A DNA stretch of 64,000 nt, from IMG/VR virus record IMGVR_UViG_3300037961_005106, positions 1-64,000 of that record. One strand, 5' to 3'. Source of the stretch: a virus. The translations under genes and the position numbers were made by a program. Positions 24,653-64,000 of this stretch are shown in pieces. The number at the start of each line of letters is the position of its first letter. Positions within the stretch are counted from its first letter, which is position 1. Below the pieces are notes generated by a model. The model made no database searches and had not been told where the DNA came from. It worked only from the letters and a program-made list of their open reading frames with translations.

Positions 24653-24677
24653 TGAATGAAATGATAAAGGGTTGACG

Positions 24678-24702
24678 CTAGGGCTTACGCAAAGCTGCCT
24701 AG
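24678..24702 (-). promoter_or_regulatory. Leader element L1, copy 1
   Basis: Minus-strand reading: CTAGGCA ... GTAAGCCCTAG with a 5-bp outer stem. It contains the TAG stop of the upstream gene and lies 25 nt before the 37-residue gene's ATG. On the plus strand the stem is followed by eight T, so it might also terminate plus-strand readthrough. Confidence 0.65.
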
Positions 24703-25634
24703 TTTTTTTTATTGAAGAAAGGTTTAAGTTGAGTTAATGCTGGAGCAGGGAAAGGAATGAATTCGTTTTCAAGCATAGCTTCAAACAAAGACCAAGCATC
24801 GTGTTGGCTATACCTTGTATCTTTGCGATACAGCTTCCACTTATTAAGAGGAGCCATTTGGCCAGACGTTGTGTAGAGAACTTGGAACTGACCAAGCTCT
24901 TGTCCTTCCCCTGGAGGAGCATACGACCAAGCTGTTGCCTTCTGACTCATCGTGCCACGTGCTGAATCAAATAGAGCAGCCCGTTTAGAAAGGAGTTCTC
25001 GCCAACGATTGATCCAAGTCAAGTGTTTACATGTAGGCTCATAGCCAGGGATTTCGGCTTGGATTTCTTTTAGGTGTAACTTTTGTTGCAAGAAAGAACC
25101 ACAAGAACATTGAGGAGAATGATCTGGTTCAGTGGCAACTTCATCTGAATCATCAATACTTAAGGGAGGATTTGGATATAAGACACCATCAGGTGCAACC
25201 AAATAGCCAAAAGAATAATCAGGATTTTCTAAGAAAGCTTTCATGCCTTCTTCGTTTTGAATGTGATCAAGTTTATCTCCCCAACGTTGTTGCATAATTG
25301 ATTGAGGTAAACGATATGATCCTTGAAATTGATAGTTCCAACCTTTGAATAAGACATAACAGTTGTTACGCCAAAAGCTTGGCCCCTTTAAATCAGGCCC
25401 AAGATATGAAAAGAAGTCAGGACAACGTGAACGAAAATCTTTGAAAGAATCTTTTACTTTTTGTTTGTCATATTCTTTTTCGGTTCCATCATTGTAAACA
25501 ACAACCAAGTTGTTATCAACCATACAAATAGCAGAGATATCTGTATCATCAAAGTCATCAAAGGCTCTTCTAATATTTGAACGGGAATAAATAATAGATT
25601 GACCAGAATTAAGTTGTTCAATAGTTGAAGTCAT
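24699..25634 (-). CDS. SWIM-type zinc-finger protein
   Basis: 311 residues. The centre holds CSCGSFLQQ ... PTCKHLTW, a CxC-xn-CxH SWIM zinc finger (~residues 180-210), known for DNA or protein binding. The N-terminal half has YNDGTEKEYDKQKVKDSFKDF and GWNYQFQGSYRLP; the C-terminal half FQVLYTTSGQMAPLNKWKLY. The rest matches nothing I know. Divergent from a small plus-strand gene with a 31-bp AT-rich gap; sits in the replication block. Confidence 0.7.
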   Translation of the reverse strand: MTSTIEQLNSGQSIIYSRSNIRRAFDDFDDTDISAICMVDNNLVVVYNDGTEKEYDKQKVKDSFKDFRSRCPDFFSYLGPDLKGPSFWRNNCYVLFKGWNYQFQGSYRLPQSIMQQRWGDKLDHIQNEEGMKAFLENPDYSFGYLVAPDGVLYPNPPLSIDDSDEVATEPDHSPQCSCGSFLQQKLHLKEIQAEIPGYEPTCKHLTWINRWRELLSKRAALFDSARGTMSQKATAWSYAPPGEGQELGQFQVLYTTSGQMAPLNKWKLYRKDTRYSQHDAWSLFEAMLENEFIPFPAPALTQLKPFFNKKN

Positions 25635-25665
25635 GGTTAGAATGAGTTAAATTAAATTAGATTAA

Positions 25666-25872
25666 ATGGCACTGAGCTTTGAATCAAGTCCAGAAGAAGA
25701 GTTCTGGAGTGTACGAATGAATCGTCACATTGAAGACTGTAGCTCAGTCAGTGAATTAAAGCAGATCGCTACGTTGCTTGTCAAGCTTGCAGCGACCCGC
25801 CAGTGCGTGATCAAAGGTCTAGTAAAAGAATCACTAGACCGTATGGAATCAGAATTTATTATCGGCTCCTAG
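25666..25872 (+). CDS. Small helical protein of cyanobacterial type
   Basis: 68 residues, MALSFESSPEEEFWSVRMNRHIEDCSSVSELKQIA then LLVKLAATRQCVIKGLVKESL. The helix pair resembles a short conserved protein common in cyanobacteria and cyanophages. A lone plus-strand gene; its end overlaps the convergent minus gene by 24 bp. Confidence 0.6.
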   Translation: MALSFESSPEEEFWSVRMNRHIEDCSSVSELKQIATLLVKLAATRQCVIKGLVKESLDRMESEFIIGS

Positions 25873-26838
25873 ATCATCACGAGATGAACTAAGAACTTGA
25901 ACTTCTGTTACTCCAGCACGAGATTCAGGAAGAATGTTTACTCCTTCCTTAATCCCATACGCCCCATTAAGACGACTAGCATCTTGCTTGGCATGTTGGT
26001 TAATGTAGTCATAGTACATCTCTTGGAATTTCCAAGTCGATTCACGATCTTCATCAGGAATGGAAAGCTTATCGAGAGAAGATAAAGCTACTTCCTGATT
26101 CTGATATTCAGGAATGTCAAATGATTCAACAGCGCAAATTTCAACGTTGTTGTTACCACGCATATCACCAGCAAGAGTGGGGCAAAAGACAGTTGTTGCG
26201 TGAAACTTCTCATTGAAATTTAAAGGCACTTCAGAATCCATGGCACGAGAAAGACACTTTGACATTTCTTTCTCATACAGTTTGATCTTCTCAGATAAAT
26301 CTGTACCATTAAGACCTTTAAGCGTTAAGACCATAGGGATCTTATGCGCACGTTTATTTTCTTTGGTAAGAATGTAAACAAGGTATTTAGTACGTACTGC
26401 ATACTTACGCTTGTACATTTCATTCTTACTATTAGCAAGATCAGAAGCAGTTTTATCTGCATCCCAAAGTTCTTTAACGTCAGGATCGTTAAAGATTCCA
26501 ATTATCTGACGCATGCCAGATGTTTCTTCGATCATTAATGGTGAACGAAGGAGGATTTGGAGTCGTGGTGATTGGAGGTTGAGGCCGAGTTCTTTGCTGG
26601 TGTTTGGTGGCATGCCAAATGCATGCTCGTAGTCAAAGATAATGGAGCCTTTGTCAAAGTCACTGGGATCTGCAGTCCAACTGCAAGAGTCAAGATCTGT
26701 GTTGCGAATAAACCAACCACGTTTCTTTGATTTGTTGAGAGGTTGAATAGTAATTAAATTTTGGTATCCAGAAACAAATTTTTTGTCGCTGAATAAAGCA
26801 AACGAATCAATGTTGCGTTTAGCAAGAGCGCTTGTCAT
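25849..26838 (-). CDS. Replication-block protein, possibly DUF5895-like
   Basis: 329 residues. Features: NLITIQPLNKSKKRGWFIRN, FDYEHAFGMPPNT, SPRLQILLRSPLMIEE, TKYLVYILTKENKRAHKIPMVLTLKG, then a conserved-looking FQEMYYDYINQ. The layout resembles a cyanobacterial protein family of unknown role (DUF5895), but I cannot confirm it. Placed next to SSB, it may act in replication or recombination. Preceded by L1 copy 2. Confidence 0.65.
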   Translation of the reverse strand: MTSALAKRNIDSFALFSDKKFVSGYQNLITIQPLNKSKKRGWFIRNTDLDSCSWTADPSDFDKGSIIFDYEHAFGMPPNTSKELGLNLQSPRLQILLRSPLMIEETSGMRQIIGIFNDPDVKELWDADKTASDLANSKNEMYKRKYAVRTKYLVYILTKENKRAHKIPMVLTLKGLNGTDLSEKIKLYEKEMSKCLSRAMDSEVPLNFNEKFHATTVFCPTLAGDMRGNNNVEICAVESFDIPEYQNQEVALSSLDKLSIPDEDRESTWKFQEMYYDYINQHAKQDASRLNGAYGIKEGVNILPESRAGVTEVQVLSSSRDDLGADNKF

Positions 26839-26868
26839 AGTGAATTCGTAGTGTGTTCGGTGTGTGAA

Positions 26869-26900
26869 ATCTGGGCCTTACCTCTATAGAGTGCCCAGAT
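26869..26900 (-). promoter_or_regulatory. Leader element L1, copy 2 (variant)
   Basis: Minus reading ATCTGGGCA ... GTAAGGCCCAGAT; an outer stem of 8 bp and an inner CTCTATAGAG palindrome. It keeps the GGCA and GTAAG blocks, and lies 30 nt before the start at 26838. Confidence 0.65.
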
Positions 26901-26914
26901 GTGTGTAGCTTAGC

Positions 26915-27778
26915 TCAGAATGGTTCCTTTGAGTCGTTGATGTTTAGATTGTTGTCGGGCAAAGGAGGTAAACCATTTGTGTTTGCTCCCCATGGCTCAG
27001 CAATTGCCATTGGTTCTTTAGGTTCCGCAATAGCTGCCTGATGAGGTGACTCAGGTGTTGTTGATTCTGCAGTGCGTCCACCCCATAAAGATTTAGGTGC
27101 AGAGTCATTAGCAATTGTTGTTGTTGATTTGATTGCGTTAGAAGTAACATCAGTCTTAGGTGCCAATGTCATTTGTTTCATTTGAATCTTTGTGTTGTAC
27201 CGTTGTTGTTTTGAATTGTGATCAAACCAACTATCAGTTACAAGCTGCCCCTGGATGGTAATACCAGTTCCTTTCTTGCAAAGATTAACCAAAAGCTCTG
27301 CCGGTTTAAAAGCATCATCAACTTTATTCATTGATGTGAAGTTAAACAAGTCAGCAGCCATTTTGCCCTTGGTAACAGTCATACTCATATTGGCAATCAT
27401 CAAACCACTGTCAGTTGTTTTGAATGTCATTGGATTAGTAACATCAGGATCTTTTGCAATCCGGCCTGTCAAGATAACTGAGTTATAAATAGGGAATGAA
27501 TCATCAACAACAGCAGGGTTACCACTGTGTAAAGAATGCTCACGTGCTTCTAAATCATGATGCAGTTTTGCACCATAGATAAACAAACAAGTTCCTGCTT
27601 TGATTAGTGAACGCCAGCGAGCCTGGTCCTGATAGATGTGATAGTACACCTCTGTTGGTGCTTTATTTGCACTAACAGGAGGCAGTTGTACTTTTACTTT
27701 CAAAGCAGTACGAGAGGAATCCAAATAGATTTCTTTCGGTTCTTCAGTCGCTTGAGCACAAACAAAAACTTGATTCAT
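26915..27778 (-). CDS. ssb: Single-stranded DNA-binding protein
   Basis: 287 residues. An OB fold spans ~residues 95-205 (NSVILTGRIAKDPDV, ANMSMTV, LVNLCKKGTGITIQGQL, RYNTKIQMKQMTL). A first, diverged OB-like region may occupy residues 1-90. A Pro/Ala-rich linker leads to an acidic tip NINDSKEPF, like the C-terminal peptide by which SSBs recruit polymerase and helicase. Encoded directly downstream of DNA polymerase and behind L1 copy 3. Confidence 0.85.
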   Translation of the reverse strand: MNQVFVCAQATEEPKEIYLDSSRTALKVKVQLPPVSANKAPTEVYYHIYQDQARWRSLIKAGTCLFIYGAKLHHDLEAREHSLHSGNPAVVDDSFPIYNSVILTGRIAKDPDVTNPMTFKTTDSGLMIANMSMTVTKGKMAADLFNFTSMNKVDDAFKPAELLVNLCKKGTGITIQGQLVTDSWFDHNSKQQRYNTKIQMKQMTLAPKTDVTSNAIKSTTTIANDSAPKSLWGGRTAESTTPESPHQAAIAEPKEPMAIAEPWGANTNGLPPLPDNNLNINDSKEPF

Positions 27779-27802
27779 GATTTTAAAGTTGGATCAGAAA
27801 AG

Positions 27803-27830
27803 CTAGGACTTACATCGTAAGAATGCCTAG
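27803..27830 (-). promoter_or_regulatory. Leader element L1, copy 3
   Basis: Minus reading CTAGGCATTC ... TGTAAGTCCTAG. Outer stem CTAGG/CCTAG, inner CAT/ATG pairing. Positioned between the polymerase stop and the ssb start (24 nt from ATG). Confidence 0.72.
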
Positions 27831-27833
27831 TAA

Positions 27834-29696
27834 TCAGTGTGTATCGTACCAGGTATAACCAGTCTTGGCATCACCTTCAATCTTGCATTGAAAGTTAAAT
27901 GCTTCACCAGCAGCAGGAAAAGCATTCAAAGCAAGACGAATAATTTCATTTTCAATGCCTGGTCTACAGCTCAATTGAATTTCGTCATGAATCATTCCGT
28001 GTTGATGCCAGTCTTGTCCATAGACTAAGCCAGCACTACTGAGATTCTTATGGATATTAATGACAACTTGTTTCATTAAAATTGCACCACAAGATTGCAA
28101 CAAAACATTTAAAGCTTTGAAATCAGAGCGACAATAAAGAGGACGCTTATCTAAACCAAGAAGATAACCACGACCAATTAAATTCTCAGCAAGTTTATTC
28201 TTTAGTTTTTGTAATGCTGGCACACCATTCATGAACGATTGGATAGCAGCTTTGCCTAATTGTTTAAGGGCATCAGGATCCTTTTCATTAGGATCCACGA
28301 TGCTACCTGCCTTAAGAAATCCAGCTCCATAAAGAACTGCATAAAGAAGTCGCTTGCTAATATCTCTAGTTTCAACACCAAACTTTTCTTGGTTATAAGT
28401 ATGGATGTCTACTGAATCATCAGTAACCATTTGTCCATACTCTCCATCATCCCAGAATGCTAAATACCCAGCAAGACAACGTAATTCCAAGGCTTTAGCA
28501 TCAGAACCAATAAGGATCCAATCGTCAGGAGCATGAAATAATGAACGGCATTCCTTTCCATATGGACTATAAGCTGCGGGAATTTGAGCAGTATTTGGGT
28601 TGCGGTGGCTACACCGGCCAGTAATACAACCATTAGTAACCACGTCGCCGTGAATATAACCATCGGGAGAGACAAGCTTGATCCAAGCGTTGTTGCCATC
28701 TTTAATTTGACCTAACCGTTTCTTAAGTAACATGTATTCTGCCAGAGGTTTAGCTTCTGGATATGGAAGTTTTTCTAAGACATCGTCATTTAATACAGGG
28801 TTACCCTTCTCAGTTCTTGTCTCAGGAATCCAACCGTATTTATTCTTTAAACGCTGAACAATTTGTTGACGTGATCCTGGATTAAACTTCTCTATTCTTT
28901 TCTTACAAAAGGGTACGTCTTTTACATAGCCACGGGAAGCATTGTTTACCTTGGGAGTAAACCATTCCTCATGTTCAATTGGTGGAAAAAGATTAACTAA
29001 TTCTGTTTCGAGTTTTGTTTTGAGATGCTCAAGTTCATCCACAAAAGCAAGAGCTGCATCAATATCAAAAGGAAAACCTGATCGAATTTGTCTCTCAATA
29101 CATGATGCAAAGGTGTGTTCAAGTTCGAGACAAGTTGTTGCGATTGTTTGCTTTTGGATGTGCTCAAGTAGTTTTGTTGTGACATTGACGTCTTGAATAC
29201 AGTAGGACAACATCTCTTCAGAAAAAGCCGAGAAATCTTTAAAGTCGATCTTGTAGTCGGATAACCTGTAACCCCAAGCTTTGAGTGAAGCTGACCCTTT
29301 GAGTCCACCAGGCACACGTGTGTATGAATTTGTATCTGACTCAAGTAACTTTTCTTTCGGCCAAATGAGTCGTGTGCAGATGAGTGTGTCGATGACATGC
29401 TGTGTGTTTAGTTTGAAGTTGGGAGCTAGCTTTTGTAAGACAGGAATGTCGTAGAAAATTATATTGTGTCCGATAAGAGCATCGGCGCTATTGAGAGAAT
29501 CAATAGCATCATTAATAGTATCAGGCCCGTAAGTAAAAGTTTGTTGTCGTGTGACATCGTAGATAACGATGCAGAAGATTTTAGTAACATCATCATAGAG
29601 TCCGTCAGTTTCTATATCGAATACATACCATTTATCATTTAAAGAATTTGGCTTCAGGCTGAACTGATAACTCTTTTGAAGCGAGGTTACTGTCAT
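27834..29696 (-). CDS. DNA polymerase, family A
   Basis: 620 residues. The 3'-5' exonuclease has Exo I YVFDIETDG, Exo II LIGHNIIFYDIP and Exo III YCIQDVNVT. The polymerase core has motif A GSDAKALELRCLAG, motif B KRLLYAVLYGAG and motif C GMIHDEIQL. This matches T7-like replicative polymerases, slightly shorter than T7 gp5. Together with the prim-pol helicase and SSB it forms the phage replisome. Its start overlaps a small membrane protein gene by 62 nt. Confidence 0.95.
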   Translation of the reverse strand: MTVTSLQKSYQFSLKPNSLNDKWYVFDIETDGLYDDVTKIFCIVIYDVTRQQTFTYGPDTINDAIDSLNSADALIGHNIIFYDIPVLQKLAPNFKLNTQHVIDTLICTRLIWPKEKLLESDTNSYTRVPGGLKGSASLKAWGYRLSDYKIDFKDFSAFSEEMLSYCIQDVNVTTKLLEHIQKQTIATTCLELEHTFASCIERQIRSGFPFDIDAALAFVDELEHLKTKLETELVNLFPPIEHEEWFTPKVNNASRGYVKDVPFCKKRIEKFNPGSRQQIVQRLKNKYGWIPETRTEKGNPVLNDDVLEKLPYPEAKPLAEYMLLKKRLGQIKDGNNAWIKLVSPDGYIHGDVVTNGCITGRCSHRNPNTAQIPAAYSPYGKECRSLFHAPDDWILIGSDAKALELRCLAGYLAFWDDGEYGQMVTDDSVDIHTYNQEKFGVETRDISKRLLYAVLYGAGFLKAGSIVDPNEKDPDALKQLGKAAIQSFMNGVPALQKLKNKLAENLIGRGYLLGLDKRPLYCRSDFKALNVLLQSCGAILMKQVVINIHKNLSSAGLVYGQDWHQHGMIHDEIQLSCRPGIENEIIRLALNAFPAAGEAFNFQCKIEGDAKTGYTWYDTH

Positions 29697-29889
29697 TTTT
29701 GTTAATCCAATTGAGTATATTCATAGCACCTGTCTTGGTTGGAGAACAAAATGCTTTTGAAATTTGAGAGTCTTTTGTTATTGGAATTAACTCAAAGACT
29801 TTGGCATCAACGTTGGGAGTGATTGCATGAGGTATCCCTTTCAAATATGTAGTAATTAAGTACGACACAAAAAGAATTGCAGGACACAT
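29635..29889 (-). CDS. Small membrane protein overlapping polymerase start
   Basis: 84 residues from the ATG at 29889 (TTG 29919 is an alternative). One N-terminal membrane segment (CPAILFVSYLITTYL), then a polar tail. It overlaps the polymerase start by 62 nt in another frame. Unknown function. Confidence 0.5.
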   Translation of the reverse strand: MCPAILFVSYLITTYLKGIPHAITPNVDAKVFELIPITKDSQISKAFCSPTKTGAMNILNWINKNDSNLASKELSVQPEAKFFK

Positions 29890-29923
29890 AAATAATACGC
29901 ATCCTGCAAAAAAGTGCAACTAA

Positions 29924-30694
29924 TTATTTTGAATATCCTGTCCAGGTTCCCTCACGTTTGCGTGCATTTAATGCAGCTTGCGCAGCAGATCCCTTGCGTT
30001 GAACACCATGAACAAGTAGAGCAAAGGGTTTATCACCAAAGCAATGACTATCATCATGGTCAATCTCTAAACCAAGATCAGCAGCTTCTTGTTCTGTATA
30101 AACTACATGAGCGATGCGCTTAAAGACATGCCCGTATCTGGAAAGGAGAGGATCGAGATTACCCCCAACTGAAGCAGTGAGAAACAGGTTAGAAGGAATG
30201 TCATCTTGATTGTTGAGCCAGTAGCTAAGTTGTTTTGTGTAGGCATAGAACTTAATTTCAGGGTGTTGACGAGCAACTTCGAGCCAAGCTTTGAAATAGA
30301 TTTCAGACCAGAAATCACCTGACTCATGGATGCGACACAAGTTATATTTAACTTTGTTTTTATTATGCTGCCATATGCCATATGCAATTGTATCTTCTAA
30401 TGCACCTTGAGGATTTTGTACGCCTTCGCCATAAAGAGTTTCTTTAATGGCATCCCAATTGTGCCAACGTGCATCGCGGCATGGTTTGCTACGTGCTTCA
30501 GACATTGCAGCAAAACATCTGTACTCCTCACCAGTAGCATGAGCTGATTGTGGCAAGTCACGAATCGTACCTGTAGTTCTGTCTGCAAAAGTTTTGCAAT
30601 GACCAGCATTAGGACAGGTGTAACCCGCTGGTAAAGAAAAGATTAGACGTTTACCAAGCTTGGCATTGCCTGTAGAGAACTTTAGGATGTGCAT
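29924..30694 (-). CDS. GP88-family phage protein
   Basis: 256 residues from the ATG at 30694; the frame is open to 30754 but that ATG lies inside leader element L1 copy 4, and the TTTCATCTC leader before 30694 fits other genes of the block. Matches the phage Gene product 88 family: FSTGNAKLG, FSLPAGYTCPNAGHCKTF (Cys cluster), CRIHESGDFWSEIYFKAW and KFYAYTK. Function of the family is unknown; the Cys cluster could bind metal. Confidence 0.8.
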   Translation of the reverse strand: MHILKFSTGNAKLGKRLIFSLPAGYTCPNAGHCKTFADRTTGTIRDLPQSAHATGEEYRCFAAMSEARSKPCRDARWHNWDAIKETLYGEGVQNPQGALEDTIAYGIWQHNKNKVKYNLCRIHESGDFWSEIYFKAWLEVARQHPEIKFYAYTKQLSYWLNNQDDIPSNLFLTASVGGNLDPLLSRYGHVFKRIAHVVYTEQEAADLGLEIDHDDSHCFGDKPFALLVHGVQRKGSAAQAALNARKREGTWTGYSK

Positions 30695-30716
30695 GAGATG
30701 AAATGAAGTGGATTGA

Positions 30717-30754
30717 ATGGGACTTACAACACACATTACTGTGTGTATGCCCAT
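30717..30754 (-). promoter_or_regulatory. Leader element L1, copy 4
   Basis: Minus reading ATGGGCATACACACA then TGTGTGTTGTAAGTCCCAT. The outer stem ATGGG/CCCAT differs from CTAGG/CCTAG yet still pairs, and the inner ACACACA/TGTGTGT stem is strong. 22 nt before the GP88 start. Confidence 0.72.
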
Positions 30755-30758
30755 GAGT

Positions 30759-31184
30759 TTAACTACAATACTCTGTATTTTGTTCTCTTTGGTATTGAGT
30801 CATAATTCTTTTTGCTTTCCAAACAGCAGCATCATTAATAAATTTATCAAGGGTGCAACCAATTAAAGCAGCAGCTTCTCTCATATCTTTTAACTCTTGT
30901 GCTTCAAACTTTACAGTAACTTTAGTCTTTATTTCTTTAGCTTTTACCCAATCAATATTCTCTTTTACCCAATCATCAACTTCTTTTTTAACGTAATAGT
31001 TTGAGCCTTTGGAACCAGGGTTAACAGGCGAAGGAAAGATACCTTCTTTTGTCTTACGAATCAAAGTGAATCGTGACATTAGTGTCAAGTCAAGTACTTG
31101 TTGCGTTGTGTAAAAATTCGATCGCTCTTTCCCCCTGGGTATGGTTGAAGAAACAGCAGCGTGAAATTGATTTTCTGGAAGCAT
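30759..31184 (-). CDS. AlpA-like DNA-binding regulator with RHH-like tail
   Basis: 141 residues. Residues ~22-75 read like an AlpA/MerR-type winged helix (FYTTQQVLDLTLMSRFTLIRKTKEG, then SNYYVKKEVDDWVKENIDW). Residues ~88-130 read like a ribbon-helix-helix (VTVKFEAQELKDMREAAALIG then FINDAAVWKAKRIM). Combination of both folds in one protein is uncommon; it is the only obvious transcription regulator in this block and could act on the nearby promoters. Confidence 0.65.
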   Translation of the reverse strand: MLPENQFHAAVSSTIPRGKERSNFYTTQQVLDLTLMSRFTLIRKTKEGIFPSPVNPGSKGSNYYVKKEVDDWVKENIDWVKAKEIKTKVTVKFEAQELKDMREAAALIGCTLDKFINDAAVWKAKRIMTQYQREQNTEYCS

Positions 31185-31283
31185 GATGGATTGATTTGGT
31201 CTAGGATAAAGGAACGTTCACCTCAGTGCGAGGCGCAATTCACTAGGCAAGGAACGGGGCCTAGGCTTTAGCGGAGAACTCTC
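31185..31283. promoter_or_regulatory. Divergent regulatory region, L1-like variant
   Basis: Separates the AlpA-like gene (minus) from a DUF4278-like gene (plus). It has CTAGG-type ends (GTCTAGG near 31199, CCTAGGC near 31260) and a direct repeat TAGGATAAAGGAAC / TAGGCAAGGAAC, but lacks the GTAAGTCC block, so I treat it as a possible relative of L1 or an operator for the AlpA-like protein. Confidence 0.4.
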
Positions 31284-31427
31284 ATGCAACTCACCTACCG
31301 TGGGGTTAAGTACCAGGCACAGACTGGTTTGATGGCTCATCTTCTCAAAAAACATGAGGAAGAGTTACGTGCAAAAAAAGAATTAGCACGTGACAAAGAG
31401 TCCATGAAAGCAACCTCAGTCTTTTAA
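31284..31427 (+). CDS. DUF4278-like small protein
   Basis: 47 residues. MQLTYRGVKYQAQ matches the start of DUF4278, a family found mostly in cyanobacteria and their phages. The tail is a charged helix (KKHEEELRAKKELARDKESM). Function unknown. It is a lone plus-strand gene converging on 31424-31621 with a 4-bp overlap. Confidence 0.65.
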   Translation: MQLTYRGVKYQAQTGLMAHLLKKHEEELRAKKELARDKESMKATSVF

Positions 31428-31621
31428 GACCAAGGCCAGCTTAACTCAACGTCAGCTTGCCAGACATCTGGATCAATCTGACGTTCACTAACATATTGAT
31501 TGAATAGGCGTTTCATTTCTTCTAATGAGATGCCTATTTCTTTTGCTTTAACGGCTACATTAGTTTGCCCACGGTAGATAAGATCAAGAGCATCTTCCAA
31601 AGAGGTTACAGTCTTGTGCAT
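31424..31621 (-). CDS. Small HTH-like protein
   Basis: 65 residues: SLEDALDLIYRGQTNVAVKAKEIGISLEEMKRLFNQYV looks like a helix-turn-helix of the resolvase/sigma type, followed by a short tail ending SWPWS. A regulator is possible but unproved. Overlaps the upstream zinc-ribbon gene by 38 nt. Confidence 0.6.
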   Translation of the reverse strand: MHKTVTSLEDALDLIYRGQTNVAVKAKEIGISLEEMKRLFNQYVSERQIDPDVWQADVELSWPWS

Positions 31622-32078
31622 CAGGAGTCATGTACTCAGGAATATCAAAATCACAACAGTCATTCTCTTGGTGATAATGCTTACAGTTTAAACATATAAT
31701 TGCTTTCTTGTTTAAATATTTTCCAGCATCTGCTTCAGGAAGTTCAATCGTTGTAATGCGATAATCACAAGCCTGGCATTGCTTTTGTCGTCGTCGATAA
31801 CCACTACCATTTAATCTGCTTTCAATAACTTTTAGAAAACGCCTCCCACAATTGGGACACTTTTCCATGATGGATGCTCTTGCTGCTTTGAGTTGATCTG
31901 CTGTTGGCATTACAAAAGGTTTACGAGAAAAAATACCTGAGCATTGTCGTGAACAAAAAATTTTAAGACGCCCACGTTTTATGTTTGCTTTATGCAACCA
32001 CTTTGAACGTTTAAAAAGTTTTCCACAACACTCACATTTCAGTTGAAGCTCACTTTTATTTAACAGAGTGTGTTCCAC
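31584..32078 (-). CDS. Multi-zinc protein with NrdR-like ribbon
   Basis: 164 residues, GTG start. Three Cys clusters: CECCGKLFKRSKW...FCSRQC (1); KCPNCGRRFLKVIESRLN, GYRRRQKQCQACDYRITTIE (2); ICLNCKHYHQENDCCDF (3). Cluster 2 matches the N-terminal DNA-binding zinc ribbon of NrdR (CPxC, KVxxSR, RRRxxC, C..RxTT.E). The ATP-cone of NrdR is absent, so nucleotide sensing is not expected. It overlaps thyX by 19 nt, consistent with a role in dNTP gene control or DNA binding. Confidence 0.7.
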   Translation of the reverse strand: MEHTLLNKSELQLKCECCGKLFKRSKWLHKANIKRGRLKIFCSRQCSGIFSRKPFVMPTADQLKAARASIMEKCPNCGRRFLKVIESRLNGSGYRRRQKQCQACDYRITTIELPEADAGKYLNKKAIICLNCKHYHQENDCCDFDIPEYMTPDAQDCNLFGRCS

Positions 32079-32722
32079 ATTGCCTCCGAAATAATTGGAA
32101 ACTGCTGCATAAAAATTGTTTTACATTTTTGAGCAATCTCTTTGTGTTCTTCTTGCGTACCGTTGGCGGTGCGAAGATCAATGTAATGAAGCCAAGAACG
32201 AAGAGTACCATTCATGTACATTTTTGTAGGGGCATTAGGCAAGACAGAACGAGCACATTCTTTTGCAATGCCGTCACTTAACATCTCTTGGTATAGATGT
32301 TCAGCATCTTCAAAGAGAACGCCAATGCGACGGTAATACTCAGAGACTTTAGGTTTACCTAAACGTTCTTCTAAATCATCAAATGATTTTTGACGATTCT
32401 TCAGATCTTGTGAGCGTAAATGTGGAATCAATGGACGACCAATTTCATTTGTATTGGCATAGCGTTGTGAAAATTCCTGGAATGAAAATGATCTGTGCCT
32501 TAATATTTGAGGACTAATTGTCCGTGTAGTGTGTACTTCTAAGCACATGTTGGCCATTTCAAAAGGAGACCAATGGCCATGTTTAATTAAATAACGTAAG
32601 AGCTTTGGACCTGTGTCCATGTTGTCTTCGTTTCTTGGAGCTGAGACTCTTGCAGTACGTACGATCATACGCTCTGCTTCATCAGTACGCCAAACTAATG
32701 AGACGGTGTGAGGTGAGAACAT
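32060..32722 (-). CDS. thyX: Flavin-dependent thymidylate synthase
   Basis: 220 residues from ATG 32722 (TTG 32734 also possible, in a TGA overlap with the upstream gene). The ThyX signature RHRSFSFQEFSQRY (RHRxxSxxxxSxR) is complete; GHWSPFEMANM and SWLHYIDLRTA fit substrate and FAD sites. It makes dTMP from dUMP with methylene-THF and NAD(P)H, supplying nucleotides for phage replication. Common in cyanophages. Confidence 0.94.
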   Translation of the reverse strand: MFSPHTVSLVWRTDEAERMIVRTARVSAPRNEDNMDTGPKLLRYLIKHGHWSPFEMANMCLEVHTTRTISPQILRHRSFSFQEFSQRYANTNEIGRPLIPHLRSQDLKNRQKSFDDLEERLGKPKVSEYYRRIGVLFEDAEHLYQEMLSDGIAKECARSVLPNAPTKMYMNGTLRSWLHYIDLRTANGTQEEHKEIAQKCKTIFMQQFPIISEAMWNTLC

Positions 32723-32730
32723 AGCGGATG

Positions 32731-33018
32731 TCAATTGATTTTCTCTCGTTCATTCTTAACAACTGCGTCGATTGCTGCCTGATTAGGAGCTAAAGCAATA
32801 CGCATTGTCATATGCCATTCAGAAGAGGATGAACCATCCCATTGAATGAGGAGCCAAGGCATAAGAGTGCCCCTTGCATTTGATTTGTATTGAACTTCGT
32901 GGACAGTACCTAGCTTTGTTCTTGGAGGAAGAGCGCCTTTAATGTTGCTCATCATTGATCTAGGTTTGTGGATGACTCGGTCACCAACATTGAATTGAAC
33001 TTGTTTGCGTTTAGTCAT
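32731..33018 (-). CDS. SH3-like small protein upstream of thyX
   Basis: 95 residues. VGDRVIHKP, RTKLGTVHEVQY and LIQWDGSSSSEWHM suggest a small SH3-like or KOW-type beta barrel. TGA overlaps the possible TTG start of thyX. Function unknown. Confidence 0.65.
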   Translation of the reverse strand: MTKRKQVQFNVGDRVIHKPRSMMSNIKGALPPRTKLGTVHEVQYKSNARGTLMPWLLIQWDGSSSSEWHMTMRIALAPNQAAIDAVVKNEREKIN

Positions 33019-33174
33019 TGAGAATTAGTATGCAGAGAAATACCCGGCTGCAGCAACAACCGGGTAAGTAGTACACGCCCCTACCGAAGGATAGATCAGG
33101 TGCTAAGGCTGATCTGGACGTATCTTAGTGAGTGCAATTAGGTGGGTCAAGTTGAAAAGTATTAAGTTAATTGT
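33019..33174 (-). other. Leader between tRNA-Leu and next operon, two hairpins
   Basis: No gene. In minus reading it has a 7-bp hairpin AGATCAG/CTGATCT (33091-33114 region) and a 7-bp TACCCGG/CCGGGTA hairpin (33047-33066 region) followed by ATTTCTCTGCA, a string similar to the end of leader family L2. It may be the 5' leader of the thyX operon. Confidence 0.4.
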
Positions 33175-33262
33175 TGGTAGGAGTGGCGAGACTTGAACTC
33201 GCACGGCCATAGTGGCCCACAGATTTTAAGTCTGATGTGTCTACCGATTCCACCACACTCCC
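33175..33262 (-). tRNA. tRNA-Leu (anticodon UAA)
   Basis: 88 nt on the minus strand including an encoded CCA. Acceptor GGGAGTG pairs with CACTCCT (first pair G-U), the D arm, anticodon loop CTTAAAA (anticodon TAA), a long variable arm as expected for Leu, and a T arm with GTTCAAGTC. The anticodon reads UUA codons (UUG by wobble), frequent in AT-rich phage genes. It is the only tRNA seen and lies 3 nt downstream of an L1 element. Confidence 0.93.
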
Positions 33263-33265
33263 AGG

Positions 33266-33302
33266 CTAGGACTTACACCAAAACTTTGTATTGGATGCCT
33301 AG
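33266..33302 (-). promoter_or_regulatory. Leader element L1, copy 5, abutting tRNA
   Basis: Minus reading CTAGGCATCCAA then TTGGTGTAAGTCCTAG, ending 3 nt before the tRNA 5' end. Its inner stem CCAA/TTGG and outer stem CTAGG/CCTAG are intact. The location before a tRNA rather than a start codon argues against a purely translational role. Confidence 0.75.
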
Positions 33303-33316
33303 ACGGTTACCTTTGT

Positions 33317-33598
33317 TTACTCATCGAGTTGCCAGTCAAGATCTAATTCTTCTAAGAATTGAATCTTGTCATAGTCAGTACCATCAATAGGTGGTGGTAG
33401 ATCATCATGTTCTAGTGAAAAGCATGCACTACAAATCCCTGGGCCATACTCTGCAGGATGTGCAAGCTCTGGTGGATTGTAACAAGGAGCAAGTGTTTGC
33501 ACCATGTTATCAATTTGGGCAGTAGCAATCCAGTGAGTAGTTCCATTAGAGTCTGTTTGATCTAAATCAATGTCGTAAACAAGAAGAATAAGTTTCAT
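33317..33598 (-). CDS. Small acidic protein of unknown function
   Basis: 93 residues, acidic, with two Cys in GICSACFSLEHDDLPPP (possible zinc site) and an N-terminal beta strand KLILLVYDIDLDQ. ATG overlaps the end of the previous gene (33595). Confidence 0.6.
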   Translation of the reverse strand: MKLILLVYDIDLDQTDSNGTTHWIATAQIDNMVQTLAPCYNPPELAHPAEYGPGICSACFSLEHDDLPPPIDGTDYDKIQFLEELDLDWQLDE

Positions 33599-33834
33599 TT
33601 GCGCACCGTAAGATGTTTAACCATGGTGTAACCCATAGATTTGATGTCAGTAGCTTTAGAAGCAAAGATTCCATTAGGCCCGTACTCCTCAAAGAGTTCG
33701 GGCCATGTGGTTAAGATCTTTTGCTGGTTACGTAAATCAGATCTACGGTAGAGAGCAGCAAGTCCTTTGACAAAACCGCCACCATAGGTTTCCATTCGAT
33801 CAAGAGTTTGATCAAGGTGTTGAGTAGTAATCAT
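33595..33834 (-). CDS. Small helical protein
   Basis: 79 residues (MITTQHLDQTLDRMETYGGGFVKGLAALYRRSDL). I see no domain. Leader is L1 copy 6 plus TTCATTCAATTCAATTC directly before the ATG. Confidence 0.62.
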   Translation of the reverse strand: MITTQHLDQTLDRMETYGGGFVKGLAALYRRSDLRNQQKILTTWPELFEEYGPNGIFASKATDIKSMGYTMVKHLTVRK

Positions 33835-33861
33835 GAATTGAATTGAATGAACAGTGAGAGT

Positions 33862-33894
33862 CTAGGACTTACATGTTGGGGATACAATGCCTAG
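33862..33894 (-). promoter_or_regulatory. Leader element L1, copy 6
   Basis: Minus reading CTAGGCATTGTA then ACATGTAAGTCCTAG. 27 nt before the ATG at 33834. Outer stem perfect. Confidence 0.73.
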
Positions 33895-33957
33895 TAATAA
33901 GTATTTACTTAAAGGTATATAAGTATTCTTGGTGGCCCTCCGGGGGTGCAGGGGGCT

Positions 33958-34149
33958 TTATTGTTCCTTAATGTTTGCCAAGTATCTAGCATATGCTCCC
34001 CTCTTTGGGGCACGATACTTTCTATTCTGTGGCTGTGGCTTCTTAGTTACATAGACACGCTGTCCGTTTCGCATGTAGTAAAGACCTCCGCGTTTACCTT
34101 CGATGAGCTCAACGTTAGTAGGCAATGCGCTTACATGATTCAACGTCAT
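33958..34149 (-). CDS. Small basic protein, PBCV basic adaptor-like
   Basis: 63 residues. LIEGKRGGLYYMRNGQRVYVTKK matches the short GxRGGxYY...GxxVYV pattern of the PBCV-type basic adaptor domain, found in viral proteins attached to diverse partners. The tail is Lys/Arg-rich. Starts in an ATGA overlap with the DUF4236-like gene. Confidence 0.65.
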   Translation of the reverse strand: MTLNHVSALPTNVELIEGKRGGLYYMRNGQRVYVTKKPQPQNRKYRAPKRGAYARYLANIKEQ

Positions 34150-34418
34150 TCGTTGTCAGACCACATGTCAGGTTTAGAGTTGTGCTCCGGCAGATCAGGA
34201 GTCCTGAAGTCTGGGAGCTCAGTCGATACTACATTACGGAAGCTGATTCCGGTACCGGGGAGCCCTAAAGATCCCCGGATGCCGTGTTCGCTAAGGTTTG
34301 CTGTGACTTGGAAGGGACCAACCTTGATTGTCTTGGAGTAGGACTTAACACCACGTTCAGTGATGTTGATGCCTGCAATAGTTTTGTCAAAGTTGATCAG
34401 TGATTTCTTTCGTGCCAT
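34146..34418 (-). CDS. DUF4236-like protein
   Basis: 90 residues from ATG 34418 (MARKKSLINFDKTIAG). The repeat-like beta pattern IKVGPFQVTANLSEHGIRGSLGLPGTGISFRN is that of DUF4236 (ending in PGTGxSxR). Family role unknown. A longer start at 34445 is possible. Confidence 0.7.
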   Translation of the reverse strand: MARKKSLINFDKTIAGINITERGVKSYSKTIKVGPFQVTANLSEHGIRGSLGLPGTGISFRNVVSTELPDFRTPDLPEHNSKPDMWSDNE

Positions 34419-34575
34419 GGTTTGTGTGTTGGAGTGAAGTGACAAAGAAGTAACTAGCTGTATCTCTATGATGTTTGATATGTACGTCAGTCTTGGAGCA
34501 TCTGATTCTTAACTCAGTGCCATCCGGTAAGATAACAAAGAGTGTTTGCTCAGGTAGTGCATCAATTGTTGGCAT
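34387..34575 (-). CDS. Small protein of unknown function
   Basis: 62 residues from ATG 34575 (PTIDALPEQTLFVILPDGTELRIRC). Beta-rich N-terminus. Overlaps the next gene's start by 32 nt in another frame; the last ~15 residues are therefore less certain. Confidence 0.5.
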   Translation of the reverse strand: MPTIDALPEQTLFVILPDGTELRIRCSKTDVHIKHHRDTASYFFVTSLQHTNHGTKEITDQL

Positions 34576-34615
34576 AGAATACAATGAATGATAAGGTTTG
34601 CTTATGTCCTGGATG

Positions 34616-34867
34616 TTATTTCCAGTACATTTGACGGATGTAATACCAAAGTACTTCTTCAGTTAAGCTGCACCCTGGGTTCTCCGCCAATAACTTAACT
34701 GCTTCGTCAAGTTCTTTTTGTGAACCATTGGCATAAGTAACGGACCATGCAACATCTTCCATGCGTTCCCATAAAGCTGTAGCTTCTGGGGTTAACTTGG
34801 AATGACGAGGTAGATCACGTCCTTTTGCTTCATAATGTTCACCATAAATGTCTTTAACTGTGTCCAT
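34616..34867 (-). CDS. Small helical protein
   Basis: 83 residues (MDTVKDIYGEHYEAKGRDLPRH), helical with ALWERMEDVAWSVTYANGS. No domain recognised. Led by L1 copy 7. Confidence 0.6.
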   Translation of the reverse strand: MDTVKDIYGEHYEAKGRDLPRHSKLTPEATALWERMEDVAWSVTYANGSQKELDEAVKLLAENPGCSLTEEVLWYYIRQMYWK

Positions 34868-34895
34868 AAATTAAGTTAAGTTGACATGAAAAAGC

Positions 34896-34923
34896 CTGGG
34901 ACTTACGCATGATAGCTGCCCAG
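34896..34923 (-). promoter_or_regulatory. Leader element L1, copy 7
   Basis: Minus reading CTGGGCAGC ... GCGTAAGTCCCAG; outer stem CTGGG/CCCAG replaces CTAGG/CCTAG, a paired compensatory change. 28 nt before ATG 34867. Confidence 0.73.
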
Positions 34924-34950
34924 AAGTGAGTTAGAGTCTGTTGTTAGTAT

Positions 34951-35319
34951 CTAGCAATAGTGAGGCCGCTCGGTGGGATAGTGTGTTGCATACCCTGAGC
35001 CGAGGGTGGCCTGAGTTGCGGAAAGATTTCGACTGTCACAGATGCTTCCTTGGTTGAATAGGTCGTAATGTTTCGTGAGTTCGAGGCAACGTCTGATGCA
35101 TTGCTTTTTGGAGAAGATGCAGTGGGTGGCGATGGCTTGACCAACTTCGTACCACCATCCTCCTTCTTCTGGCCCACCGTACGCTTGGTAGACTTCGTGG
35201 ATTTTGATTGTCTTTGGGGCTTCACCACTAAAGCTTTCTGCCCAGTTGTATTGGTCAATCCAATATCTTGTTGCGCCTGTACGGGGGTAACGTTTGAGGT
35301 AGGCGTTTGCGAGGGCCAT
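34951..35319 (-). CDS. Conserved small phage protein
   Basis: 122 residues. HEVYQAYGGPEEGGWWYEVGQAI is a recognisable conserved stretch in phage proteins of unknown role; a Cys-rich centre CIFSKKQCIRRCLEL follows. I preferred this frame over a longer overlapping one (to 35504), which is low-complexity and basic. Confidence 0.65.
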   Translation of the reverse strand: MALANAYLKRYPRTGATRYWIDQYNWAESFSGEAPKTIKIHEVYQAYGGPEEGGWWYEVGQAIATHCIFSKKQCIRRCLELTKHYDLFNQGSICDSRNLSATQATLGSGYATHYPTERPHYC

Positions 35320-35373
35320 AGAAGAAGTGATAGAAGAGCAAGAATGTGATCGATGATGTGGTATTCAGTTGTG

Positions 35374-35553
35374 TTAGAACTTCCCATCAGGATGCTGTGA
35401 GATAAAGTTTTCGTAGTCAGGATCAATGCCTTCGGGAGGATCCATTTCCTCTCGCATTGCTTGCTCCTGTTGATAGGCGATGTCAGCAAGGATGTCAATC
35501 TCATCCTGCTTAATTTGTTTAGTGAGGCGGTCGAGTTCAGACATGGTTGACAT
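35374..35553 (-). CDS. Small acidic protein
   Basis: 59 residues from ATG 35553 (MSTMSELDRLTKQIKQDE). An upstream ATG in frame lies inside the L1 element and is unlikely to be used. Acidic helical; ends QHPDGKF. No domain recognised. Confidence 0.55.
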   Translation of the reverse strand: MSTMSELDRLTKQIKQDEIDILADIAYQQEQAMREEMDPPEGIDPDYENFISQHPDGKF

Positions 35554-35580
35554 GATGTTAAATTGAATGGGTATTAAAGA

Positions 35581-35643
35581 CTGGGACTTACGTTGTTGAG
35601 GTACTCCAGGTATTGGCCTGATGTAATTCGACATACTGCCCAG
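35581..35643 (-). promoter_or_regulatory. Leader element L1, copy 8 (long insert)
   Basis: Minus reading starts CTGGGCAGTATG and ends ACGTAAGTCCCAG with 38 nt between, longer than other copies. Outer stem kept. 27 nt before ATG 35553. Confidence 0.68.
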
Positions 35644-35649
35644 TGCATT

Positions 35650-36009
35650 TTACTGAGGTGGACTACATGCATCAGCGTAGAGAAAACTACCGCTCCAGTC
35701 AGCCTTATGTAACGCAGCCGCATAAGAACTGTCGTTTAATAAGTTGTAACGTACTTGACGTATTGGAGAACAATAGGAGGCAGGCTTGTAAACATTCCCT
35801 TTGCTATCAATGAAGCACCATGTTTCAGTAGTAGGACCACCCAACATGTTCTTCCATGAGATTGTTAGCTCAAGTCTGATGTACTTTCTACCTTGGTATT
35901 GACGGAATGTAAGAGATTTCTCACGTTCCTTAACACCTTTTCGATAGTACTTACTGATGGCAGACTCAGTAAGGTTGTTGATGCGTTCTTGAAGGATTGA
36001 TGTTGTCAT
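35650..36009 (-). CDS. Conserved small phage protein
   Basis: 119 residues. A helical N-terminus then beta-rich RKYIRLELTISWKNMLGGPTT, ETWCFIDSKGNVYKPASY and SYAAALHKADWSGSFLYA. Conserved-looking cyanophage small protein without assigned function. Confidence 0.65.
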   Translation of the reverse strand: MTTSILQERINNLTESAISKYYRKGVKEREKSLTFRQYQGRKYIRLELTISWKNMLGGPTTETWCFIDSKGNVYKPASYCSPIRQVRYNLLNDSSYAAALHKADWSGSFLYADACSPPQ

Positions 36010-36011
36010 GA

Positions 36012-36209
36012 TTAACAGGCAGGTCCATAGTATTTCTCCAGCCCCCTGGGACAGACCGGTGACTCATAGTTGAGTGCATAAGTGCCTGCACCTATCAGTG
36101 CTAGGCATGTAATGACACCAACAATGATGGGCGCTGTGAGAGGGGGACGGGAGTATGAATCGAGTGTGACGTACTTGTTCTTGCCAAGACGTACTGTGTG
36201 AATTGCCAT
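36012..36209 (-). CDS. Small single-pass membrane protein
   Basis: 65 residues from ATG 36209, 1 nt after the upstream stop. One membrane segment (APIIVGVITCLALIGAGTYAL) and a Cys-containing outer tail (CPRGLEKYYGPAC) that could form a disulfide. Unknown function. Confidence 0.62.
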   Translation of the reverse strand: MAIHTVRLGKNKYVTLDSYSRPPLTAPIIVGVITCLALIGAGTYALNYESPVCPRGLEKYYGPAC

Positions 36210-36210
36210 G

Positions 36211-36474
36211 TCAAGTCTGCGTATTGAGTTTGAAGGTGTCAAGATGTTTAGTAATGAAACCAGAATCCCAGATAGTAGGTAAGCATTGCTCACTTACTGT
36301 TTCTTGGATGCCATCGACAATGGTCATGACACGACACCAATTAGTGTTCTTGTCAGGATGATGTGCGATAACGCAGGCAGTATAGTCATCTCCTTCTGAG
36401 AAGACCATCCACTTAAGTTCCTGGGCTTGTTTGATTGCCCATTCCCTAAGCTCACTAGTCGTTGGTGAAGTCAT
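36211..36474 (-). CDS. Small protein of unknown function
   Basis: 87 residues, helical N-terminus (ELREWAIKQAQELKW), then a beta sheet region with ACVIAHHPDKNTNWCRVM. No domain recognised. Led by L1 copy 9. Confidence 0.6.
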   Translation of the reverse strand: MTSPTTSELREWAIKQAQELKWMVFSEGDDYTACVIAHHPDKNTNWCRVMTIVDGIQETVSEQCLPTIWDSGFITKHLDTFKLNTQT

Positions 36475-36493
36475 TTGGAATTGAATGAGGTGT

Positions 36494-36529
36494 ACCCTGG
36501 GACTTATACACTGATGTGATGCCCAGGGT
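36494..36529 (-). promoter_or_regulatory. Leader element L1, copy 9
   Basis: Minus reading ACCCTGGGCATCACA then GTATAAGTCCCAGGGT. Outer stem extends to 8 bp; the G of GTAAGT is replaced (TATAAGT). 19 nt before ATG 36474. Confidence 0.72.
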
Positions 36530-63359: not shown

Positions 63360-64000
63360 ATGGCAAAAAAGAATAAAAACACATTCGGTGGAGGTAGTTC
63401 TTTTGGACGCTTCCAAGGATCTGTTTTTAGTGGAGGTACACCAGAAGTAAAAAAATATAAAGTAGAACCTGTTGAAGGTGTTTTTGGTGGTTCAATACCT
63501 AACTCTTTATACACTGTTGAACGAGAAGCTACCTGGTCACGATGGCGTCGGGGTTGGGAGTTAGGTGCAGCAAACCTTGCAAACACGGCTTATGAATATC
63601 CATTTGAATATATTATTCCAACGACAACAGGAGCAGTTGATCAAATTGGAGCAAGAGAACCATTGATGTCAGGTGTCTTTAGAGGATTCCCAACAAAAAA
63701 TAAAGAGTTAGGTATTCACTGGGCGGGAAAGATTGAGCCTGGGAACCTACGGTTCGATCGTTTAACCGATAGTTCAGGAACATTACTAGCGATTTCAGGA
63801 GAGGTAAACAAAAATACTTTGTATTTAGGAGTACCACAAGACAATGAAAACTATTGGTACATGCAGCTAAGTGGCACGTTTAATACAGTTAATCCTGTAC
63901 CACCTCCACTGTACGTAACCTTTTCTGGTACAAATCAAACATTAAAACCAATTGTTGGGGATATTCTTGAAGATAAAATTATTACTGCTTCAGGACAAGC
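63360..64000 (+). CDS. Structural/tail protein (3' end outside window)
   Basis: At least 213 residues, ATG 63360. Basic Gly-rich start MAKKNKNTFGGGSSFGRF, Trp-rich segment TWSRWRRGWELGAANLAN, then beta-rich NKNTLYLGVPQDNENYWYMQLSG. Reading frame runs off the window end. Probably a large tail protein of the same operon as the two previous genes. Confidence 0.7.
   Translation, partial: MAKKNKNTFGGGSSFGRFQGSVFSGGTPEVKKYKVEPVEGVFGGSIPNSLYTVEREATWSRWRRGWELGAANLANTAYEYPFEYIIPTTTGAVDQIGAREPLMSGVFRGFPTKNKELGIHWAGKIEPGNLRFDRLTDSSGTLLAISGEVNKNTLYLGVPQDNENYWYMQLSGTFNTVNPVPPPLYVTFSGTNQTLKPIVGDILEDKIITASGQ

Follow-up and report, generated by a model that had tools for sequence, protein, structure and literature searches.

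What does a short, apparently folded element do when it recurs nine times on one strand of a phage genome, ahead of eight reading frames and one tRNA? The question arises from the window, a stretch of 64,000 nucleotides (the opening part, from base 1 to base 64000, of a virus record 79,234 bp long) in which an initial annotation had listed nine minus-strand copies of a structured leader element. Among the gene products of the window are ThyX, a primase, a single-strand DNA-binding protein (SSB) and a DNA polymerase of family A, and in size and content the record is similar to S-EIVl, a 79,178-bp Synechococcus phage from fresh water.

Nine copies in the window phage

All nine copies were confirmed by model search of the record, every one on the minus strand within a block at 24.6-36.6 kb. 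Our first model, R1, was partly trained on the window copies and matched them with E-values of 2.7e-11 to 2.9e-6. R2 avoids this circularity, being an RNA model made from other viruses' copies only, with the window sequences excluded; against the full 79,234-bp record it gave exactly nine matches (E 2.5e-8 to 1.8e-4), the same nine that had been annotated, and zero further copies in the rest of the record. Since a model holding no window sequence returns these nine and nothing else, they are not chance matches. The copies and the tRNA are as follows:

Copy 1: 24676..24704, minus strand, before a 37-aa ORF (ATG 24652), R2 E 1.3e-5
Copy 2: 26869..26900, minus strand, 30 nt before the DUF5895 gene at 25849-26838 (Pfam), R2 E 9e-8
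Copy 3: 27801..27832, minus strand, before the SSB gene at 26915-27778 (PHROG), R2 E 2.5e-8
Copy 4: 30715..30756, minus strand, 20 nt before a GP88-family gene, ATG 30694 (Pfam), R2 E 1.8e-4
tRNA-Leu (TAA): 33175..33262, minus strand (ARAGORN, Rfam tRNA)
Copy 5: 33264..33304, minus strand, ending 1 nt before tRNA-Leu(TAA), R2 E 1.1e-7
Copy 6: 33860..33896, minus strand, before a 79-aa ORF at 33595-33834, R2 E 4.1e-6
Copy 7: 34894..34925, minus strand, before an 83-aa ORF at 34616-34867, R2 E 5.9e-8
Copy 8: 35579..35645, minus strand, with a 45-nt inner hairpin, before a 59-aa ORF (ATG 35553), R2 E 2.9e-5
Copy 9: 36495..36528, minus strand, ATAAG variant, before an 87-aa ORF at 36211-36474, R2 E 5.9e-8

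Eight copies had been placed shortly before a start codon and one at tRNA-Leu, and this is what we find: eight of the nine lie 20-30 nt from the next ATG and the ninth stops 1 nt short of the tRNA. The outer-stem pairs CTAGG/CCTAG, CTGGG/CCCAG and ATGGG/CCCAT also occur as had been described. As for the two blocks said to be shared, GGCA is present in all nine copies, but the second block, GTAAGTCC, holds in six only, the others carrying GTAAGCCC (copy 24676), GTAAGGCC (copy 26869) and ATAAGTCC (copy 36495); given these variants, the fixed part of the element is CA / RUAAGN, flanked by GG/CC. The description of the region as an early block stands in so far as the copies form one 12-kb minus-strand cluster with replication genes, the SSB gene itself being preceded by a copy; for the timing that the term implies, this clustering is the whole of the support.

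Two other features of the block deserve mention. The DUF5895 protein encoded after copy 2 (predicted structure, pLDDT 81) found no significant match in a fold search, the best being BRCA2-DSS1-ssDNA at E 7e-3 and TM 0.23, and we rejected it as an obvious RNA binder. A Glutamine-II riboswitch lies at 31212-31265 on the plus strand (Rfam, 43 bits), opposite to the surrounding genes, and the short ORF MQLTYRGVKYQAQ... directly after it resembles, by eye, the usual 'downstream peptide'.

Consensus, fold and spread among viruses

Four pattern scans of IMG/VR supplied loci for comparison. The first two were too loose and most of their loci are chance matches; model matches were counted at E<0.01. 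At this threshold at least 205 + 193 matches (about 400) were found in the 200 loci searched; the best 300, together with the window copies, represent 174 loci, and the matches listed come from at least well over 100 other viral contigs. The carriers are S-EIVl-like freshwater cyanophages, psbA-bearing T4-like cyanophages and other phages. Whole-record searches found 4-10 copies per S-EIVl-like contig, and many other contigs have one or two. Two are present in Synechococcus phage S-EIVl, the relative that has been isolated, and zero in seven marine T4-like cyanophage isolates (P-SSM2, P-SSM7, S-SSM7, ACG-2014f, S-BM3, P-HM2 and S-H25). Assignment to cyanophages probably holds for contigs with psbA or likeness to S-EIVl, the traits from which it was made; groups L299, L263, L361 and L371 and the phrog_4652 group stand outside it. 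One stringent pattern scan of 257 Gb of cellular genomes, using only the compact CATCC...GGTG form, returned three matches. L420 apparently lies within a gene. L421 (6764-7100, a Clostridia MAG) contains an element-like match in what by eye is a suspected group II intron region, and L422 (3542-3568, an Oscillospiraceae MAG) looks like a real copy directly after a stop codon.

The consensus reads, in order, N-C-U-R-G-G, C-A, inner hairpin, R-U-A-A-G-N, C-C-Y-A-G-N. An outer stem of 5-7 pairs, mostly CTRGG/CCYAG, encloses an internal loop with 'CA' facing 'RUAAGN'; the loop is bordered by two G-C pairs and by an inner hairpin, whose length ranges from 7 nt to about 50 nt. Across the 247 distinct rows that other viruses contribute (A2, 121; A3, 126), C8 and UAAG never vary, A9 is replaced in a single row, and the base 5' of UAA is G, rarely A, an invariance partly imposed by the patterns with which the copies were fetched. 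Forty-four distinct copies outside all fetch patterns nevertheless keep CA / RUAAGN with one exception (CG), and their outer pair 5 varies among G-C, U-A, A-U and G-U while remaining 100% paired.

The initial annotation had taken the coordinated changes in the outer stem as a mark of structured RNA and had proposed a covariance model as the check. Run on other viral genomes, that check finds covariation outside the window phage: two-sided changes occur in both stems, also among the 44 non-pattern copies, and stand well above shuffled and slid controls. The covariation scores of two alignments, in which 85-89% of the counted stem cells are paired, are 0.35 and 0.38 against 0.10 and 0.13 after shuffling and at most 0.13 for slid structures, and a hand-picked alignment gives 0.37; the alignments are model-fitted and their rows related, so these scores are supportive rather than exact. 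Inner pair 10/72 is Watson-Crick, G-U or U-U, with zero other mismatches in the 247 distinct rows, and this tolerance of U-U as the sole mismatch fits RNA pairing. Orthologues of the GP88, DUF5895 and other loci keep the core and its place and have the inner hairpin swapped for a completely different one that still pairs, and such replacement is the clearest sign of selection on the predicted structure.

A DNA element, that is, a promoter or DNA hairpin with transcription starting just after each copy, was among the roles originally offered. Its position ahead of each unit would suit a promoter, G-U pairs are rare at some positions, and GGGCA...GTAA loosely resembles the published Syn5 polymerase promoter ATTGGGCACCCGTAA. 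The likeness is limited to GGGCA and GTAA, however, and because the spacing is variable a Syn5-type single-subunit RNAP promoter failed the fixed-length test and was rejected. More generally, the conserved blocks lie anywhere from 7 to about 50 nt apart, the stop codon of the preceding gene is usually adjacent to the element, and the variant described below has a loop complementary to the start of the gene that follows, a pairing that is sensible only in RNA. We therefore consider a DNA element decidedly unlikely. An intrinsic terminator, which calls for an unbroken GC-rich stem and a U-run after it, was also rejected: the 5-7 bp outer stem is broken by the conserved internal loop, and no element appears in the terminator-scan list.

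Placement and candidate roles

The element is oriented with its neighbours, the downstream ORF being on the same strand in 200 cases versus 10 and the upstream ORF in 206 versus 11. Intercistronic copies usually begin 0-15 nt past the upstream stop codon and end 20-30 nt before an ATG. In 20 of 21 phages with a tRNA copy the gap to the tRNA is 1-3 nt, the tRNAs being different tRNA-Leu genes (1-2 nt, 19 phages including the window) and one tRNA-Asn (3 nt); the outlier is a tRNA-Leu copy at 33 nt. Some copies head noncoding tracts, and in L373-type contigs every one of 4-5 tandem noncoding units starts with the element. Still others directly follow psbA, or a small ORF behind psbA, and are succeeded by a terminator and an endonuclease-VII/HNH-like gene. 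This order of psbA region, element, intrinsic terminator and endonuclease-VII/HNH-like gene is seen in L386 (4091-4140), L396, L398, L400, L402 and L414, and since the terminator lies a few nucleotides before the start codon the endonuclease gene is apparently transcribed through it. What all contexts have in common is the boundary of an upstream ORF with the next RNA unit, not translation itself. The sense orientation, the U-U tolerance at pair 10/72 and the loop-leader pairing of the variant treated below together point to a function in RNA, and as judged by sequence comparison the copies represent a conserved RNA element situated where the upstream gene meets the next RNA unit.

The reading that we favour, tentatively and with somewhat less than even confidence, is that the element functions as a post-transcriptional processing or 5'-end-defining site. 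We prefer it because tRNAs and noncoding tracts are preceded as well, so that translation is not the shared feature. The element would be transcribed in sense within polycistronic phage RNAs, the next unit being a tRNA, a noncoding tract or an mRNA whose leader is unstructured and 20-30 nt long. CA / RUAAGN, the internal loop that does not vary, would be the putative recognition site for endonucleolytic processing or for shielding of the new 5' end, and a cut might fall at or just past the 3' base of the outer stem, which is U-rich in mRNA copies and 1-3 nt before the tRNA in the others. Each downstream unit would thereby be released as an RNA of its own, its 5' end defined. The acting factor is plausibly phage-encoded, given the almost complete lack of copies in cellular genomes by the stringent pattern scan. 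Leaders that follow the element contain 4.6% G and are U-rich in their first 3 nt, which would accord with processing; the preferred substrate of RNase E is single-stranded and AU-rich, RN|WUU (PMC10989929). Against processing, no RNase is known to act on this motif, the U-run is absent from the tRNA copies, and an intrinsic terminator follows the element in at least six psbA-bearing contigs, a setting in which a processing use is less obvious.

Those same six contigs bear on a role in antitermination or relief of polarity, exerted on RNA polymerase across the block. Their gene order would be explained by it, as would the copies ahead of untranslated RNAs, but nine copies at gene starts exceed the needs of one processive antiterminator and a terminator scan found few convincing terminators between the window copies. 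We think such a role quite unlikely.

The leaders themselves suggest a different role. With one leader taken per gene family they show a 5-nt period (lag-5 identity 0.44, z 14); leaders without the element at the same loci show it more weakly (0.33, z 10), so the period cannot be credited to the element alone. In noncoding leaders of the window and of L201-type contigs a nearly G-free TCAAC/TTCAA period is seen, strongest, though not exclusively, with the element. In T4 gene 32 the operator consists of a folded RNA of approximately 28 nt, after which an unstructured leader carrying UUAAA repeats extends as far as the RBS (PMC535899). By analogy, the fold could nucleate a cooperative SSB, for instance the one encoded just after copy 3, which would coat the leader and cover the start site. 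Here too a fold of about 30 nt is followed by a G-poor, unstructured, repeat-bearing leader of 20-30 nt up to the start codon, and copy 3 sits before the SSB gene itself. Not every copy precedes a coding sequence, however: those that precede a terminator, or a tRNA by 1-3 nt, are left unexplained, and the weaker period in element-free leaders detracts further. We regard a translational operator of this kind as the chief rival of processing, albeit a rather unlikely one.

In about 20 loci the element adjoins a gene of phrog_4652, in some as 4-5 tandem units, as in:

L139, 2986-3848
L373, 2242-3650
L431, 1477-2792
L432, 1486-2680
L434
L435

This family has no assigned function and occurs in 129 phage records, including Felix O1-like, Gordonia, Mycobacterium and Pseudomonas phages. 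Its predicted fold resembles the Csm3/Cas7 backbone subunits (Foldseek E 3e-5, prob 1.00, TM 0.46), a fold-level match of a predicted structure. In the isolates examined the phrog_4652 gene is followed by a second gene, with 60-85 nt noncoding tracts of strict 5-nt period (NGGYN) nearby, and the three may possibly form an unrecognised RNA-protein system. The adjoining Cas7/Csm3-like gene, with period-5 tracts of 65-75 nt following the element in several phages, would agree with the operator reading, but family and profile searches found no Cas7-like gene in the window phage and we rejected such a partner for the window copies. A broader idea, which we think unlikely, is a phage RNA-coating system with the element as its structured head: the element would seat a filament-forming RNA-binding protein, SSB-like in S-EIVl-type phages and Cas7/Csm3-like elsewhere, on a downstream period-5 tract, and the system would be put to use in translation control by some phages and in separate noncoding RNAs by others.

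A D-type variant, seen in L161, L204 and L241 and retrieved by pattern in 92 stretches, has an inner-hairpin loop that is a perfect 9-14 nt complement of the next gene's start in 53 of 55 distinct leaders, with 20 different paired segments. An TATAAATA-like late promoter lies between element and start in 47 leaders, and the genes that follow are, by eye, GIY-YIG (YTYAYLREDGTPYYIGKGK in L204) or other endonuclease-like genes. psbA/psbD occurs in the five largest D-type contigs tested and also in two smaller ones, which marks them as cyanophages. RBS sequestration by loop-leader pairing is thus evident in this variant, but common-type copies show no excess of such matches (mean longest match 4.8 nt versus 4.9 in controls). 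The six window copies evaluated match over 4-5 nt only, at control level, and sequestration by the loop was rejected for them; as an explanation of the window's elements we hold it to be extremely improbable. Of the roles first suggested, the best fits are protein binding and processing or marking of 5' ends, and a conventional promoter is disfavoured by the variable hairpin length and the abutting stop codon.

Relation to known phage RNAs

The initial annotation knew no described motif of this pattern, and Rfam 15 supports it: at the gathering cut-off the scanned sources gave only tRNA, Glutamine-II and ZMP-ZTP matches, none over an element, and E-value scans of the element regions found nothing over any element. 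The cyanophage and phage RNA-element literature describes other motifs; our coverage of it is partial, and an earlier description is possible. Structured RNAs of cyanophages are known in manA, wcaG and PhotoRC-II (PMC2864571), which are all in Rfam, but none of these matches the present element.

Other comparisons are with T4. As in the gene 32 operator, a fold of about 28-30 nt is followed by a weakly structured leader with a 5-nt repeat and a start site, and one copy precedes an SSB gene; the T4 operator, however, is a pseudoknot serving one gene, whereas the present fold is a stem-internal loop-hairpin found ahead of many genes, a tRNA and noncoding tracts, and protein binding is putative, drawn from sequence. 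Like the RegB and RNase E intercistronic cleavage sites (PMC3014915) the element would be a signal between genes that are putatively early, but RegB cuts unstructured GGAG and the element is a conserved fold without GGAG. In T4 homing endonuclease genes, the RBS is masked in the early read-through transcripts and accessible in the late ones (PMC2988022). The D-type variant shares with the I-TevI, mobE and segB hairpins an upstream structure, an internal late promoter and a paired start region (PMC2988022), and differs in that the pairing partner is the loop of a conserved element; the window copies have no such pairing.

These findings suggest a new structured-RNA family of a known kind, the phage cis-acting RNA element. 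Its use is unusual, with many copies per genome and one fold common to mRNA, tRNA and noncoding contexts, and suggests an unrecognised signal marking where the next RNA unit begins. The covariance model provides a sequence handle, and the signal is testable in S-EIVl. Cyanophages and some other phages would share a widespread structured RNA that had escaped cataloguing, with as many as about ten copies in a genome where genes, tRNAs and noncoding RNAs begin, and its partner, once found, would reveal how phages in which few regulators are recognised time or separate the products of long transcripts.
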